Shown piece after piece: positions 8,505-14,462 of a stretch of DNA of 14,462 bases. Positions within the stretch are counted from its first letter, which is position 1; every line of letters starts with the position of its first letter. Source of the DNA: Methanospirillum sp. (GTDB lineage Archaea > Halobacteriota > Methanomicrobia > Methanomicrobiales > Methanospirillaceae); NCBI GenBank assembly GCA_028679485.1, contig JAJRBL010000319.1:1-14462 (forward strand), read 5' to 3'. Position numbers and translations under genes: made by a program. The notes under the pieces are model-generated. The model made no database searches and was not told the origin of the DNA. It worked only from the letters and a program-made list of their open reading frames with translations.

Positions 8505-10526
8505 ATGGTCAGTGTTGATGAAGCTGTATCAGCCGGAATAAAAAAGATAGCAACAGAAATTGAAGCAATTACAAGCCTGTCAGGATACCCGGAGACCGCG
8601 TACCACCTTCCCATCACGTATGCAATATCAGGAAAGGCAGTAAGCGATGCCGCGTCGGCAAAAAAGGTATACCTGGATACGAACCGGAGCCCGCTTATCG
8701 GAAACGAGATCCTGGTCGCAGCCGGGGATCGAACTGAAGATCCTCCGTATACCGGTTTTATCGAGGATTCTATCATCAGGAAACTTGGCTATTCGCTGGT
8801 TGACGGGAGTATCCTGGGACTTGCCCTGATCGTGGGGAACCCGGAGAAGGCCGATCACGCCGCCGCGATATGCCGTGAACTCCAGGAAAAACTGATGCTC
8901 ACCTTCCTTGCCGGGGGAGTCATCAGATCACTGACCGGAGCGGGGGTGAAAGTCGGCCTTGAACTCAGGCTTGTCCCGCTTGGAAAAACATCCCTTAAGG
9001 CGGTTCATTTCACCGATATCCTGGCCCGGGTGGCGATGATGTTCGGGGGGGTGGCACCCGGGGATGCACACCGTCTCGTCTCTTATGCCGCAGACCGGGC
9101 AAAGGCATTTGTCATCGTATTTCCCGGTATGACCGAGGAGGAGATCGCCTGCATCGATGCCCTGCGGGTTCTCGGTATCCCCGTCCTCCACATGGGAGGA
9201 TACGAAGGAGGGAACTTCATCCGGGTTGCACTGCCTGATGCGGTCAGGACCGGGATGGAGATGAGGGGCATCAGGGTACAGGTGACGGCAATCCCCATTC
9301 CCATGGCCTGCTCCCCTGCCTTCGAAGGAAAGGCGATACGAAAGGAAGAGATGTACGCCGAGTTCGGGGGGACACGTTCACCTGCTTTCGAACTTCTCAG
9401 GACTGCCGATCAGAAAGAGGTTACCGACGGAAAGGTGACCGTCATCGGCCCGGAGATTGACCAGATCCCCGAGAAATCTGCTGCCCCCCTCGGGATCATC
9501 GTCGAGGTGACCGGGAAGGCGATGAAAAAGGAGTACGAACCGGTTCTTGAGAGAAGAATCCATAACTTCATCAATTACGGGGAGGGGACATGGCATTCCG
9601 CCCAGCGTGATCTCATCTGGGTCAGGATATCCAGGGAAGCAGTATCCCAGGGGATAAAGATCGAACACCTGGGAAAACTCCTTGCAGCCAAGTTCAGGAT
9701 GGATTTTCCCACCCTCGTGGATGCCGTCCAGGTAACCCTGATCACCGACCCGGAAAGGATCATCGGCGAACGGAAAAAAGCAGAGGCGGTGTACCAGGAG
9801 CGCGATGAGCGTATCGCCGGAATGAAGGACAGCGATGTCGATCTCTATTACTCATGCACCCTCTGCCAGACCTTTGCGCCCAACCATGTCTGCGTGATTA
9901 CGCCGGAACGGCCTGCTCTCTGTGGTGCCCTCACCTGGCTCGACGGCAGGACTGCGTACGAGATGTCACCTGCAGGTGCAAACCAGCCGATCGGGAGAGG
10001 AACGGTGATCAATGCCGATACCGGGGAGTTCGAGGGGGTCAACCGGTTTGTGCGGCAGGCATCCCACGGAGAGATCGAACGGTGCGTCCTGTACAGCATC
10101 ATGGATGCACCCATGACCTGCTGCGGTTGTTTCGAGGCAGTAGCCATGATCCTGCCGGAGACCAACGGGATCATGATCGTAACCAGGGAATACAAGGGAG
10201 TTACCCCTTCCGGGATGACCTTCTCCACGCTGGCCGGCACTATCGGGGGAGGAGCACAGACACCGGGTTTTATCGGCATCTCGAAAGGGTACATCCTTTC
10301 CGACCGGTTTATCCAGGCAGAAGGCGGATTATCCAGGATCGTCTGGATGCCTTCGGTCCTCAAGGAGGAACTGGGGAACCGCCTCTCTGAAAAGATACAG
10401 GCAGCCGGGCTTCTAGGATTCTACGAGAAGATAGCCGATGAGACCATCACAACAGATATCGAGGGATTACTCACATTCCTGACGTCTGTTGATCACCCGG
10501 CACTGAACATGCCCCCGTTATTCTAG
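8505..10526 (+). CDS. acsB: Acetyl-CoA synthase, bacterial-type full-length AcsB (CdhC)
   Basis: AcsB condenses a corrinoid-bound methyl group, CO and CoA into acetyl-CoA at the nickel A-cluster, or runs the reverse. Cys451, Cys454, Cys463 and Cys473 (YSCTLCQTFAPNHVC onward) keep the 3-9-10 spacing of the [4Fe-4S] ligands, and Cys540-Gly-Cys542 holds the distal nickel. All lie exactly 55 residues before the Moorella AcsB ligands as I recall them. YGEGTWHSAQRDLIWVRIS and PSGMTFSTLAGTIGGGAQT are further signatures. At 673 residues it includes an N-terminal domain (about 1-250: GYPETAYHLP, AMMFGGVAPGDAH). That domain docks CO dehydrogenase in bacteria and is absent from archaeal CdhC (about 470). 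An in-frame TAA at 8493 fixes the N-terminus. It heads a unit with acsD, acsC and an activator. Confidence 0.96.
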   Translation: MVSVDEAVSAGIKKIATEIEAITSLSGYPETAYHLPITYAISGKAVSDAASAKKVYLDTNRSPLIGNEILVAAGDRTEDPPYTGFIEDSIIRKLGYSLVDGSILGLALIVGNPEKADHAAAICRELQEKLMLTFLAGGVIRSLTGAGVKVGLELRLVPLGKTSLKAVHFTDILARVAMMFGGVAPGDAHRLVSYAADRAKAFVIVFPGMTEEEIACIDALRVLGIPVLHMGGYEGGNFIRVALPDAVRTGMEMRGIRVQVTAIPIPMACSPAFEGKAIRKEEMYAEFGGTRSPAFELLRTADQKEVTDGKVTVIGPEIDQIPEKSAAPLGIIVEVTGKAMKKEYEPVLERRIHNFINYGEGTWHSAQRDLIWVRISREAVSQGIKIEHLGKLLAAKFRMDFPTLVDAVQVTLITDPERIIGERKKAEAVYQERDERIAGMKDSDVDLYYSCTLCQTFAPNHVCVITPERPALCGALTWLDGRTAYEMSPAGANQPIGRGTVINADTGEFEGVNRFVRQASHGEIERCVLYSIMDAPMTCCGCFEAVAMILPETNGIMIVTREYKGVTPSGMTFSTLAGTIGGGAQTPGFIGISKGYILSDRFIQAEGGLSRIVWMPSVLKEELGNRLSEKIQAAGLLGFYEKIADETITTDIEGLLTFLTSVDHPALNMPPLF

Positions 10527-10534
10527 GAGCAACC

Positions 10535-11470
10535 ATGAACTATACCTATTCACCCGGGTGGACAACAGCGGTGCGGGAAGTGATCATCGGGGCCACACCT
10601 GATGAGGGCGGAACCCGCCGGATATCATACCGTATCGGGGGAGAGCAGGATCTCCCGTTCATCGGATCCAGCGGCCATAAACCACTCATCGCCTTTGAGA
10701 TCTGTGATGATCCCGCCATATGGCCTGAAGTTGTCAGGTGTGCCTGTACCAAGCTTATCGATCGTCCGGCAGATTGGGCTGCATATGCTGATACCGTTCT
10801 CAGGGCAGATCTTATCAGGATAAACCTCACGTCAACGAAACGGAGGAACTTCTCAGACTTCGACGGGGTTATTAAAACCGTAAAAAGCATCCTGGCAGCT
10901 ACCAGCCTGCCTCTTCTCATCGAGGGGAGTGCCGACCTCGAGATTGATTCCGAGGTCTACCAGCGATGCGGGGAGGCAGGACAGGGCGAACGGCTCGTTT
11001 TGGGGACTGCTGAAGCAGCACGGTACCGGAGCGTGGCGGCAGCAGCTATCGCCTACGGTCATTGTGTGATTGCACAGTCGCCCATCGATGTAAACCTCGC
11101 AAAACAACTGAATATCCTCCTGAGGGAAGCGGGTGTTGCAGATGACCGCATCATCATTGACCCCTATACCGGGGCACTCGGGTACGGGTTCGAGTATACC
11201 TACTCCACCATGGAGCGGATCAGGTTTGCAGCCCTGAAAGGTGACATGGATCTTGCCATGCCTCTGATATCCGCACCGTCCGATTCGCTTACGGTAAAGG
11301 AAGTCAGGGAATCGGTGTACAGCCACGAGGCTGCAATCGCCTGGGAGGTGGCGACATCAGTCGCTGCAGCCCTTGCCGGTGCGGTCATCCTCGTAGTCCG
11401 CCATCCGGGTTCTGTACCGCCCCTGAAAGAGGCAATAGATACACTCTGGACCGAAAAGGAGGGAGTCTGA
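10535..11470 (+). CDS. acsD: Corrinoid iron-sulfur protein small subunit (AcsD/CdhD)
   Basis: This is the small (delta) subunit of the corrinoid iron-sulfur protein, which carries the methyl group from tetrahydropterin to AcsB. It opens with AVREVIIGATPDEGGTRRISY, then GGEQDLPFIGSSGHKPLIAFEICD, followed by a TIM barrel containing ADLIRINLTSTKRRN, PLLIEGSADLEIDSEVYQRC and IIIDPYTGALGYGFEYTYST. The subunit has no iron-sulfur ligands of its own and partners with AcsC. At 311 residues it matches bacterial AcsD (about 320) rather than the longer archaeal CdhD (about 430). AGGAG (10525-10529), overlapping the acsB stop, sits five bases before the ATG. Its TGA shares one base with the acsC ATG (TGATG), indicating coupled, balanced synthesis of the two subunits. 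Confidence 0.93.
   Translation: MNYTYSPGWTTAVREVIIGATPDEGGTRRISYRIGGEQDLPFIGSSGHKPLIAFEICDDPAIWPEVVRCACTKLIDRPADWAAYADTVLRADLIRINLTSTKRRNFSDFDGVIKTVKSILAATSLPLLIEGSADLEIDSEVYQRCGEAGQGERLVLGTAEAARYRSVAAAAIAYGHCVIAQSPIDVNLAKQLNILLREAGVADDRIIIDPYTGALGYGFEYTYSTMERIRFAALKGDMDLAMPLISAPSDSLTVKEVRESVYSHEAAIAWEVATSVAAALAGAVILVVRHPGSVPPLKEAIDTLWTEKEGV
11457..11463 (+). promoter_or_regulatory. acsC: Very strong ribosome binding site for acsC
   Basis: AGGAGGG lies six bases before the acsC ATG and within the last codons of acsD. It allows initiation independent of the TGATG coupling with acsD. Confidence 0.6.
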
Positions 11471-12795
11471 TGGCACTGAAGGCACTCGATATCTACAAAC
11501 TGCTTCCGAAGAAGAACTGCAAGGAATGCGGAGACCAGACCTGCCTTACCTTCGCGATGAAACTCGCCCAGGGAAAAGGAGAACCTGACGCCTGTCCGTA
11601 CCTGGATGATAATGCGAAGGCGGTCCTCGGCGCCTCCACCAGGCCTCCGATCCAGAAGATAACCATCGGGATGGGATCGAGGGCTTTTACCGTCGGCGAA
11701 GAGTTCGTTTTTTACCGGCATGAAAAGACCTACTATCACCAGCCAGGGATCGTCTACCTCATCTCCGACATGGATACAGAGGAGAGTATCCGGGAGGTTG
11801 CAAGGCAGGTGAGGGAAAACTGTCTCACGAGGATCGGCATAGATCTCCTTCTAAACGGGGTGGCAGTCAGGGCTGATTCAGGATCCGGGGAACAGTTCTC
11901 CCGTGCGGTCAGGATCGTTTCAGAAGGAGGAGACCTCCCCCTCGTCCTCATCGCTCCCGATCCGGCGGTTATGGAAAAGGCACTTGAAATATGCGGGAAT
12001 TATGCACCGGTTATCGGGCCGGTCACCCCGGATAACGTCACTGAATTCTGCGAATTTGCCAGGAAATACGGTGTCACCCTCGTCCTTAAGGGAGACGATC
12101 TCCCCGGACTTGCCACCCTCTCTGAAAAGTGCCTTTCCCAGAAGGTCCAGAACCTCATGCTGGATCTCTCCGGATCTTCCGGCCGGTATGTCAGGGAGGC
12201 AACGCTTACCCGCCAGCTTGCTCTCTCCCGGGAGGTTACTGCGTTCGGTTACCCGGTTTTCATGGACGCCTCCGAGTCAGGGCTTAGTGGCGTGGTTACC
12301 GGAATTGCCAAGTTTGCCTCGGTGATCGTCACGCCCCCGCTCCAGAAACCGGAGATGGATGCTGCACTTGTCATGAGGCAGAACATCTATACCGATCCGC
12401 AAAAACCGATCCAGATCACCCCGGGCCTGTACAGGATCGGAACACCAGGAAAGGATGATCTCGTCTTCCTCACGGTGAACTTCTCTCTCACCTACTTTAC
12501 CCTCCAGGGATACCTCGAGGCAACACGAAGATCCTGCTGGCTGCTCATCGTGGACACGGAGGGCATGTCAGTTCTCACGGCCGTGGCTGCCGGAAAACTG
12601 AACGAGTTCGTGATAAAAGATGCAATTACCCTCTTCAAACTTGCCGATGAGGTGAACCACAAAACGCTCATCATACCAGGGTATGCAAGCCCTCTCTCCG
12701 GGAGAATCGAGGAGGTCAGCGGCTGGAACGTGATCGTCGGCCCGCGTGACGCAGCAGAGATCGCCTCCTTCATCGAGGAGGAACTGAAGGTATAA
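11470..12795 (+). CDS. acsC: Corrinoid iron-sulfur protein large subunit (AcsC/CdhE)
   Basis: The large (gamma) subunit binds both the [4Fe-4S] cluster and the cobamide that carries the methyl group. The N-terminal cluster domain starts ALDIYKLLPKKNCKECGDQT, with Cys17, Cys20, Cys25 and Cys42 as ligands, the same positions as in the Moorella protein as I recall it. A TIM barrel follows (about residues 90-320). A C-terminal corrinoid-binding domain (about 325-441) begins near PGLYRIGTPGKDDLVFLTVN and includes RRSCWLLIVDTEGMSVLTAV. At 441 residues it is of standard length. It overlaps acsD by one base and is followed one base later by the activator gene, so the corrinoid protein and its repair factor are made together. 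The name cdhE applies if the archaeal nomenclature is used. Confidence 0.95.
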   Translation: MALKALDIYKLLPKKNCKECGDQTCLTFAMKLAQGKGEPDACPYLDDNAKAVLGASTRPPIQKITIGMGSRAFTVGEEFVFYRHEKTYYHQPGIVYLISDMDTEESIREVARQVRENCLTRIGIDLLLNGVAVRADSGSGEQFSRAVRIVSEGGDLPLVLIAPDPAVMEKALEICGNYAPVIGPVTPDNVTEFCEFARKYGVTLVLKGDDLPGLATLSEKCLSQKVQNLMLDLSGSSGRYVREATLTRQLALSREVTAFGYPVFMDASESGLSGVVTGIAKFASVIVTPPLQKPEMDAALVMRQNIYTDPQKPIQITPGLYRIGTPGKDDLVFLTVNFSLTYFTLQGYLEATRRSCWLLIVDTEGMSVLTAVAAGKLNEFVIKDAITLFKLADEVNHKTLIIPGYASPLSGRIEEVSGWNVIVGPRDAAEIASFIEEELKV

Positions 12796-12796
12796 C

Positions 12797-14462
12797 ATGC
12801 CAATAGTCACATTCCTGCCAGGATTCCGTAAAGTCGAGGCATCACAGGACGAATCATTCCTTGTTGCCGCACAGAAAGCCGGCCTGGCCGTAAACGCGGT
12901 CTGTGGCGGTGTAGGGAAATGCGGTAAATGTGTCATGTTCCTTAAATCAGGGAGGATCCGGTTCGATGCCGAACGGTTCAGGGAGTTTTTCTCCCCCGAT
13001 GAGCGTGAAGCCGGAGCAGTCCTCGCCTGCGAGACATACCCGGAGGATGACTGCCAGGTACTGGTCCCCGAACGGACACTCATCCAGGCACAGCAGATCC
13101 TGATGAACGTCATCGGCAAGGAGGTGGAACTGAACCCTGCAACCCGCAAGTACCATGTTCAGGTCATCTCTCCCACCCTTGAAAATCCGACCTCGGATCT
13201 CTACCGTCTGCTTGAGTCGATCAAGTCTGCCGGAGGGCCGGATTCCAGGCAGATCTATGTTCCGCTCGAGATCCTGAGACGAATTCCATCGGTTCTGAGA
13301 AACAGCGGATGGGATGTTACGACTACCGTGGCACGGCTTCCTGCCGGATTTCGCATGATAGAGATAGAAAAAGGGGATACATCAAGGGAGATCTACGGGG
13401 CTGCGGTCGACCTTGGAACCACCACCATAGTGGCATTTTTGCGGAGTTTCGAGACCGGCCAGGTGATCGGAACCGGTTCAAACTACAACCGGCAGATAAG
13501 CTGCGGTGAGGATATCCTTTCACGGGTAAACTATGGAAAACGAAAGGGTTTCGGCCATCTCCAGGAACTGGCCGTGGAATCCATCAATGCCGCTATTACC
13601 AGTGCGGCGAATGAAGCAGGGATAGACCGGGAGGACATCTGCGAGATGGTGATCGCCGGAAACACCATCATGACCCATATGCTCCTCAACATCGATCCGT
13701 CCTACATGATAGAGGAACCGTATGTTCCGGTTGTGAGGAGATCCCTGACCACGTCTGCAGGCAGAATTAACCTCTCCATCAAACCGCAGGGGGGAATTTT
13801 TGTCTTCCCTGCCGTAAGCGACTTTATCGGGGGTGATATCGTTGCAGATATCCTCGCTTCAGGGATGCATGAATCCCCGGATATATCACTGCTTGTGGAT
13901 ATAGGGACGAATTTCGAGGTAGTTCTGGGAAATAACGACTGGATGTTCGCCTGTGCAGGTGCAGCCGGGCCTGCACTAGAAGGGGGGGAAGTGCTCTTCG
14001 GGATGCGTGCAAACCCCGGGGCAATAGAGCAGGTCACCATCGATCCGGTCAGCCTGGCCACGAAATACCGGACGATTAACCAGAAAAAACCGGTAGGTAT
14101 CTGTGGTTCCGGACTCATCGACATCCTGGCAGAACTCCTCCGTGCCTGTGTTATCGACAGGACCGGCAGAATAAACACGACCATCAGTCATCCCCGGATA
14201 CGCCAGGGCGAATACTTCCCCGAGTTCGTGATCGCCTGGAAAAACGAGACCGGAACCGGGAAGGATATCGTGATAACAGAGAACGATATCAAGAACCTGA
14301 TCATGAGCAAGGCATCCACCCTTGCCGCCTGCATCGTGCTCATGAACCAGGCAGGCATTTCTCCGGGTGAGATTAAAACCCTCTACTTTGCGGGAGGGTT
14401 CGGGAATTACCTGAACAAGGAGAATGCAATCACCATCGGCCTGGTCCCGGAGATTCCGGTCG
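12797..14462 (+). CDS. RACo-like ferredoxin/ASKHA corrinoid-protein activator (partial)
   Basis: The frame is open from ATG 12797 to the right edge, giving 555 codons without a stop; family members have about 600-650 residues, so little is missing. The N-terminus is a [2Fe-2S] ferredoxin with Cys36, Cys42, Cys45 and Cys78 (VCGGVGKCGKCVMF, then LACET). A linker and middle domain follow to about residue 200. Next comes an ASKHA ATPase-like domain with VDLGTTTIVAF (Asp205), VDIGTNFEVVLG (Asp368), AAGPALEGGEVLFGMRANPG and FAGGFGNYL. In acetogens such proteins (RACo/AcsV) use ATP to drive one-electron reduction of Co(II) in the corrinoid iron-sulfur protein. The methanogen RamA does the same for methylamine systems, but with [4Fe-4S] clusters at the C-terminus. 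Position one base after acsC makes AcsC/AcsD the likely target. Confidence 0.9.
   Translation, partial: MPIVTFLPGFRKVEASQDESFLVAAQKAGLAVNAVCGGVGKCGKCVMFLKSGRIRFDAERFREFFSPDEREAGAVLACETYPEDDCQVLVPERTLIQAQQILMNVIGKEVELNPATRKYHVQVISPTLENPTSDLYRLLESIKSAGGPDSRQIYVPLEILRRIPSVLRNSGWDVTTTVARLPAGFRMIEIEKGDTSREIYGAAVDLGTTTIVAFLRSFETGQVIGTGSNYNRQISCGEDILSRVNYGKRKGFGHLQELAVESINAAITSAANEAGIDREDICEMVIAGNTIMTHMLLNIDPSYMIEEPYVPVVRRSLTTSAGRINLSIKPQGGIFVFPAVSDFIGGDIVADILASGMHESPDISLLVDIGTNFEVVLGNNDWMFACAGAAGPALEGGEVLFGMRANPGAIEQVTIDPVSLATKYRTINQKKPVGICGSGLIDILAELLRACVIDRTGRINTTISHPRIRQGEYFPEFVIAWKNETGTGKDIVITENDIKNLIMSKASTLAACIVLMNQAGISPGEIKTLYFAGGFGNYLNKENAITIGLVPEIPV

Follow-up and report, generated by a model that had tools for sequence, protein, structure and literature searches.

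The window analysed here is the complete contig JAJRBL010000319.1 (C249; 14,462 nt) of the Methanospirillum sp. assembly GCA_028679485.1. At positions 8505-14462 it carries four adjacent genes, acsB, acsD, acsC and acsV, which encode an acetyl-CoA synthase (ACS), the two subunits of a corrinoid iron-sulfur protein and a corrinoid activator (Table 1). The initial annotation read this stretch as a bacterial-style acetyl-CoA synthase operon in an apparent methanogen. The open reading frames and family models agree with that reading, and the host genome yields three matches to mcrA. AcsB passes the NCBIfam model NF040764 with 884 bits over residues 8-672 (cut-off 800 bits). AcsD passes NF003376, which covers AcsD/CdhD (334.6 against a cut-off of 280 bits), and falls below the separate WLP_AcsD model NF040759 (186 against 430 bits). 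AcsC passes NF003195 for AcsC/CdhE (483 bits, cut-off 306). The acsV product, of which the window holds 555 of about 635 residues, scores 475 against 800 bits with NF040756. The window AcsD shares 33-41% identity with the four bacterial AcsD proteins sampled and 31% with CdhD of its own genome. The corresponding values for AcsC are 32-38% to four bacterial AcsC proteins and 33% to the CdhE of the same genome.

The operon continues on a second contig of the host assembly. When reversed, this contig (C262) shares an exact overlap of 25 bases with the end of the window, carries on the acsV frame and then begins a further gene; a gene of about 345 residues follows acsV in related loci. Sequence searches against Pfam, NCBIfam and PDB, as far as they were run for each, returned no match for the products of three relatives (P0006-P0008). 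A predicted model of P0008, encoded in locus L007, has a predicted local distance difference test score (pLDDT) of 87. Of the top 18 PDB hits in a fold search with this model, 17 carry the name methionine synthase or MetE and the other that of a methyltransferase, at TM-scores by query of 0.43-0.58. Four putative zinc ligands, H227, C229, D248 and C323 (H-x-C, D, C), are conserved without exception in 58 of 58 sequences. This ligand set is described for MesB by Price et al. 2021 (PMC7857596). On the basis of fold, ligands and gene context, the gene after acsV is predicted to be mesB, encoding a corrinoid-dependent core methionine synthase that would transfer a methyl group from AcsCD to homocysteine. 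The carbon monoxide dehydrogenase (CODH) subunit by which a bifunctional CODH/ACS complex is recognised (AcsA/CooS) is absent from the open reading frames seen in the window and in C262.

Table 1. Positions of the operon genes in the window and of related features in other loci.
Feature	Sequence	Positions	Strand	Description
acsB	window	8505-10526	+	bacterial-type acetyl-CoA synthase, 673 aa; open reading frame, Pfam/NCBIfam, sequence and structure comparison
acsD	window	10535-11470	+	corrinoid iron-sulfur protein small subunit, 311 aa, bacterial size
acsC	window	11470-12795	+	corrinoid iron-sulfur protein large subunit, N-terminal Fe-S motif, 441 aa
acsV	window	12797-14461	+	RACo-like corrinoid activator, 555 aa, open at contig end
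CooS gene	L066	16860-18971		beyond mesB and the cooC-like gene
CooS gene	L068	3804-5756		beyond mesB and the cooC-like gene
Fused CODH-ACS frame	L098	2591-6775		CODH half recognised by eye
Fused CODH-ACS frame	L099	6167-10297	-	CODH half recognised by eye
Fused CODH-ACS frame	L100	2301-6362		CODH half recognised by eye
NifH-like gene	L117	6620-7483		named by eye
NifH-like gene	L119	12366-13187		named by eye

AcsB of the window is of the bacterial type, by sequence and predicted fold. The initial annotation had contrasted its length with the roughly 470 residues of archaeal CdhC and that of AcsD with about 430, and the genome itself supplies the matching values: its own CdhC, on another contig, has 468 residues and its CdhD 436. 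The sequence match to bacterial ACS (6ytt) spans residues 8-672, and the match to archaeal CdhC (9c0s) starts only at residue 265. About 660 residues of the predicted model superpose on bacterial ACS, with a sequence identity of 40-43%. A CODH-like A1 domain occupies about residues 1-260. Residues 2-258 of the model match the N-terminal domain of C. autoethanogenum ACS (6yua) with a root mean square deviation of 2.2 over 257 residues, and the Pfam N-terminal model PF18537 gives a weak match (24.4 against 32.2 bits). The protein resembles the full-length AcsB with CODH-like A1 of the bacterial CODH/ACS complexes of C. hydrogenoformans, C. autoethanogenum and Moorella (1ru3, 6ytt, 1oao). It differs in that no acsA is seen in the archaeal operon and in a shorter A1 segment. 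The archaeal acetyl-CoA decarbonylase/synthase (ACDS/Cdh) complex (CdhABCDE; 9c0s) shares the A2-A3 core and the corrinoid protein subunits. However, CdhC has no A1 domain, and its identity to AcsB is about 40-45% over the core only.

All six A-cluster cysteines (C451, C454, C463, C473, C540 and C542) are present in the window AcsB. They are intact in the aligned AcsB of 61 of 61 relatives, which argues that the ACS is not decaying. Relative to bacteria, the A1 domain of the window AcsB lacks about 25 internal residues. The segment from T31 to G84 measures 52-57 residues in 60 whole archaeal AcsB rows; of 59 bacterial rows, 58 have 73-83 residues there and one is a fragment. The 61st archaeal row, from G172, is cut by a contig edge and is without the same A1 stretch. 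Going by the entry title of 6yua, A1 is the part of ACS coupled to CODH in that solved structure. The deletion may therefore go with independence from CODH; it is common to carriers with and without CooS.

The operon is not confined to a single methanogen. The survey covered 135 genomes of the order Methanomicrobiales that are at least 90% complete, with the host assembly excluded. Long AcsB is found in 63 of them, in a single frame in 61 (including the contig-cut G172) and split over contigs in two (G095 and G188). Short archaeal CdhC is present in 41 and is accompanied by CdhA in all 41, one CdhA being fragmented. Both proteins occur in 31 genomes, only the long one in 32, only the short one in 10 and neither in 62. 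mesB is present in the same 63 genomes as long AcsB and in none of the 72 others, including the 10 with CdhC only. CooS is not associated with long AcsB: it is found in 39 of the 63 genomes that have long AcsB and in 47 of the 72 that do not, with three fragments included (p 0.72; Fisher values overstate independence as the genomes are related, which leaves the identity of the AcsB and mesB sets unaffected). In the mesB search, G135, G140, G158, G188 and G227 each showed one in-frame stop.

Loci were fetched for all carriers except the two with split AcsB, giving 61 stretches that mostly extend about 9-14 kb beyond acsB, and upstream only as far as fetched. The order acsB-acsD-acsC-acsV-mesB is kept wherever the contig reaches. 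Both acsD and acsC follow acsB in 61 of 61 loci, acsV in 60 and mesB in 59, the contigs of G165 and G160 ending first. An ATPase gene that we take to be cooC-like comes after mesB in 55 loci, and four of the others are contig ends; its product passed no CooC model. G207 and G201, the two carriers of the Methanospirillum genus group (L074, L121), are without this gene in the fetched stretch. CooS lies downstream on the same strand in only two of the 61 loci. In these genomes, G157 and G219 (L066 and L068), it starts about 10 kb after the acsB start.

Ten of the 32 genomes with long AcsB but no CdhA or CdhC have no CooS that could be found either. They are G056 (a single 1.98-Mb contig), G070, G072, G082, G098, G134, G138, G141, G189 and G221. 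Their completeness ranges from 90 to 99%, with four at 98-99%. A search of all ten for the Prismane fold (PF03063) returned nothing in seven and a hybrid cluster protein in three, and a hidden CODH was rejected on this ground.

The operon acsB-acsD-acsC-acsV-mesB may be a stand-alone methyl-transfer module, leading from acetyl-CoA through the corrinoid protein to homocysteine, rather than a CO2-fixing complex. We put the probability of this reading at about 0.55. Gene content and order, the conserved ligands, the linkage to mesB and the ten genomes with no CODH found are observed directly. We infer the enzyme activities, the direction of the reaction and the fate of CO. AcsB would exchange the acetyl group of acetyl-CoA, as CO and methyl, with the corrinoid protein AcsCD. 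AcsV would reductively reactivate the corrinoid, and MesB would hand the methyl group to homocysteine to give methionine. In the CODH-free members, acetyl-CoA would yield methyl-AcsCD and CO, and the enzyme would act as an acetyl-CoA decarbonylase feeding methionine. Methyl supply from acetyl-CoA to methionine is the likeliest function at least in these species, by analogy with a bacterial system. In Dehalococcoides, which is without CODH, AcsB cleaves acetyl-CoA and the methyl group passes to AcsCD, and is hypothesised to move on to core-MetE (PMC7005905). Like the AcsB-AcsCD-core-MetE (MesB) system of Dehalococcoides mccartyi, as far as it is set out in that source, the archaeal set pairs an ACS and a corrinoid protein, without CODH, with a core methionine synthase bearing zinc ligands of the HCDC type. 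Unlike D. mccartyi, the archaeal carriers also possess a MesA-type enzyme and have the genes in one tight operon with acsV, and about half of them additionally carry archaeal CdhA and CdhC.

Several observations weigh against a methionine module. The fold match of MesB is moderate, and uroporphyrinogen decarboxylases appear at similar TM-scores with weaker E-values. Of the 32 genomes without CdhA and CdhC, 22 encode CooS, in one case as a contig-edge fragment only, and this is a possible CO source. The gene after mesB in most loci is cooC-like, and cooC-type genes mature CODH in bacteria. Methyl-tetrahydromethanopterin, which methanogens have, could methylate AcsCD instead. In addition, 38 of 39 genomes checked, the host genome among them, encode a PF01717 methionine synthase, which we take as MesA-type by its size and group. 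Methionine therefore does not need the acs-mesB module, and MesB as the sole methionine synthase was ruled out. The module is an addition to an existing methionine route. PF01717 scores are lower in the Methanospirillum genus group (G000:C141, G207, G201, G198, G202, G208), at 115-126 bits versus 141-159 bits in the remaining genomes checked.

Carbon fixation, the use about which the initial annotation had asked, is doubtful because the window has no CODH gene, mesB stands at the end of the operon and some carriers have no CODH that could be found. Acetyl-CoA would here be made from methyl-AcsCD and CO, with MesB as a side branch tapping the methyl-AcsCD pool. The CO would come from CooS, native CdhA or outside, and the host organism would possess a second acetyl-CoA synthase. 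The frequent CooS among genomes with long AcsB only, its position about 10 kb from acsB in G157 and G219, the cooC-like gene, and the CdhA found in 31 of 31 genomes that have both AcsB and CdhC (one fragmented) are all consistent with such a use. It is countered by the ten carriers without a detected CODH, the lack of association with CooS across the order, the A1 segment shortened in 61 of 61 and a linkage that is perfect to mesB but not to CODH. We regard it as less probable than the methyl-transfer reading. Less probable still is a flow of methyl groups from methyl-tetrahydromethanopterin through AcsCD to MesB, in which AcsB would only balance acetyl-CoA and methyl-corrinoid or act under special conditions. 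Archaeal CdhDE take methyl directly from the pterin. The methionine methyl of methanogens derives from methyl-tetrahydromethanopterin (PMC7005905), but the MesA-type enzyme, predicted to use MtrA (PMC7857596), is already present. Moreover, acsB is the first gene, with all A-cluster cysteines kept wherever looked at, and the adjacent operon genes leave no space between them for a pterin-dependent methyltransferase, for which the rest of the genomes was not searched.

The group f4/g27, presumably Methanoculleus, includes carriers of the bacterial-type module without CdhA. A partial deletion of Codh/Acs genes in digester Methanoculleus has been described and taken as ongoing loss (PMC8621161), and the operon could likewise be a remnant of partial gene loss in lineages adapted to acetate-rich habitats. 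The carriers resemble these "partial" genomes in having some Codh/Acs genes and an incomplete set, but the genes are read there as undergoing loss and here as an intact separate module. We regard a remnant as very unlikely: the genes are bacterial-type and not leftovers of the archaeal complex, they form one clade with gene order kept and A-cluster cysteines in 61 of 61, and CdhA is retained or missing along with CdhC (41 of 41, with one fragmented CdhA). If the identification of f4/g27 holds, at least some partial sets would be a different enzyme, not a decaying one.

A mesB-acsC-acsD operon in methanogens was described by Price et al. 2021 (PMC7857596), and its carriers are described there as having the Wood-Ljungdahl pathway. 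The bacterial type of AcsB, the missing CODH and the exact co-occurrence are points found here and not in the available text of that account. A search of the open-licence literature, which left out subscription papers, found no account that connects mesB in Methanomicrobiales with a bacterial-type AcsB and absent CODH, and no labelling study in Methanospirillum. Genomes with acsB, acsC and acsD are commonly credited with the Wood-Ljungdahl pathway. In the order studied here, these genes go with a predicted methionine synthase and are also found where no CODH was detected, so pathway assignments of this kind may be mistaken for a large part of the order. A methyl-transfer module predicts that acetate C2 label would enter the methionine methyl group and that CO would be released. 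An archaeal ACS possibly free of CODH would also be useful for enzymology.

The trees of AcsB contained 28 long AcsB rows, 15 CdhC rows, three fused archaeal rows, one short Omnitrophota row and 24, later 26, bacterial rows; eight of the bacterial rows were taken from 120 listed matches, and no sequence from Chloroflexota or Desulfobacterota was included knowingly. The 28 long AcsB rows of the order (27 different) form one group with a support of 100/99, rising to 100/100 after the addition of two Firmicutes. In both trees all 15 CdhC rows, including that of the host genome, lie beyond a 100/100 branch that excludes long AcsB. Together with the nearly full-length alignment and fold match to bacterial ACS, this upholds the reading of AcsB as bacterial-type. 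The choice offered alongside it, between transfer from bacteria and retention of an ancient form, is not settled by the trees. The best tree places long AcsB and CdhC as one side against bacteria with a support of 77/44, and retention of an ancient form is therefore conceivable. In the approximately unbiased (AU) test, grouping long AcsB with the fused ACS gives a p-AU of 0.255, and grouping it with C. hydrogenoformans ACS gives 0.402. Among 392 genomes drawn from the phylum, matches stronger than 1e-150 outside the order came only from G292, G301 and G310, in which ACS is fused to CODH; weaker or split matches, such as that of G318 from the same genus, fall outside that comparison. That long AcsB is confined to one order and a single further genus favours acquisition, though the tree falls short of proving it. 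In G310, G292 and G301 (family f7; L098, L099 and L100), CODH and a bacterial-type ACS are apparently fused in one frame of 1354-1395 residues, followed by acsD and acsC. A 2.63-Mb Acetoanaerobium noterae record called a plasmid (NZ_CP154629.1; L097) carries acsB and looks chromosomal by its size.

The host assembly comprises 1.63 Mb in 319 contigs and is 64.6% complete. A run of genes upstream of acsB, named by eye as purA-cbiB-pdxS-pdxT-gpm-CARDB, is also found in a Methanospirillum metagenome-assembled genome (L003), where two other genes lie between the run and acsB. The acs operon is in addition carried by single-contig genomes of related archaea. Because of these shared upstream genes and single-contig relatives, a chimeric or contaminant origin of the contig was ruled out. 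The bacterial-type operon stands beside an archaeal Cdh complex in the host organism. The end of one contig (C108) holds two ATPase genes and the start of cdhA. Another (C12) holds the end of cdhB, cdhC (468 aa), cdhD (436 aa), cdhE (479 aa) and a RACo-like gene. The gene order of these separate contigs runs unbroken in G202 of the same genus. The suggested replacement of Cdh thus does not apply to the host. Across the survey, the operon accompanies Cdh in 31 of 63 relatives and occurs without CdhA and CdhC in the other 32. No CooS above the cut-off was found in the host genome, at its 64.6% completeness. In the host genome (L117) and in G202 (L119), a NifH-like gene, recognised by eye, directly follows the archaeal cdh operon.

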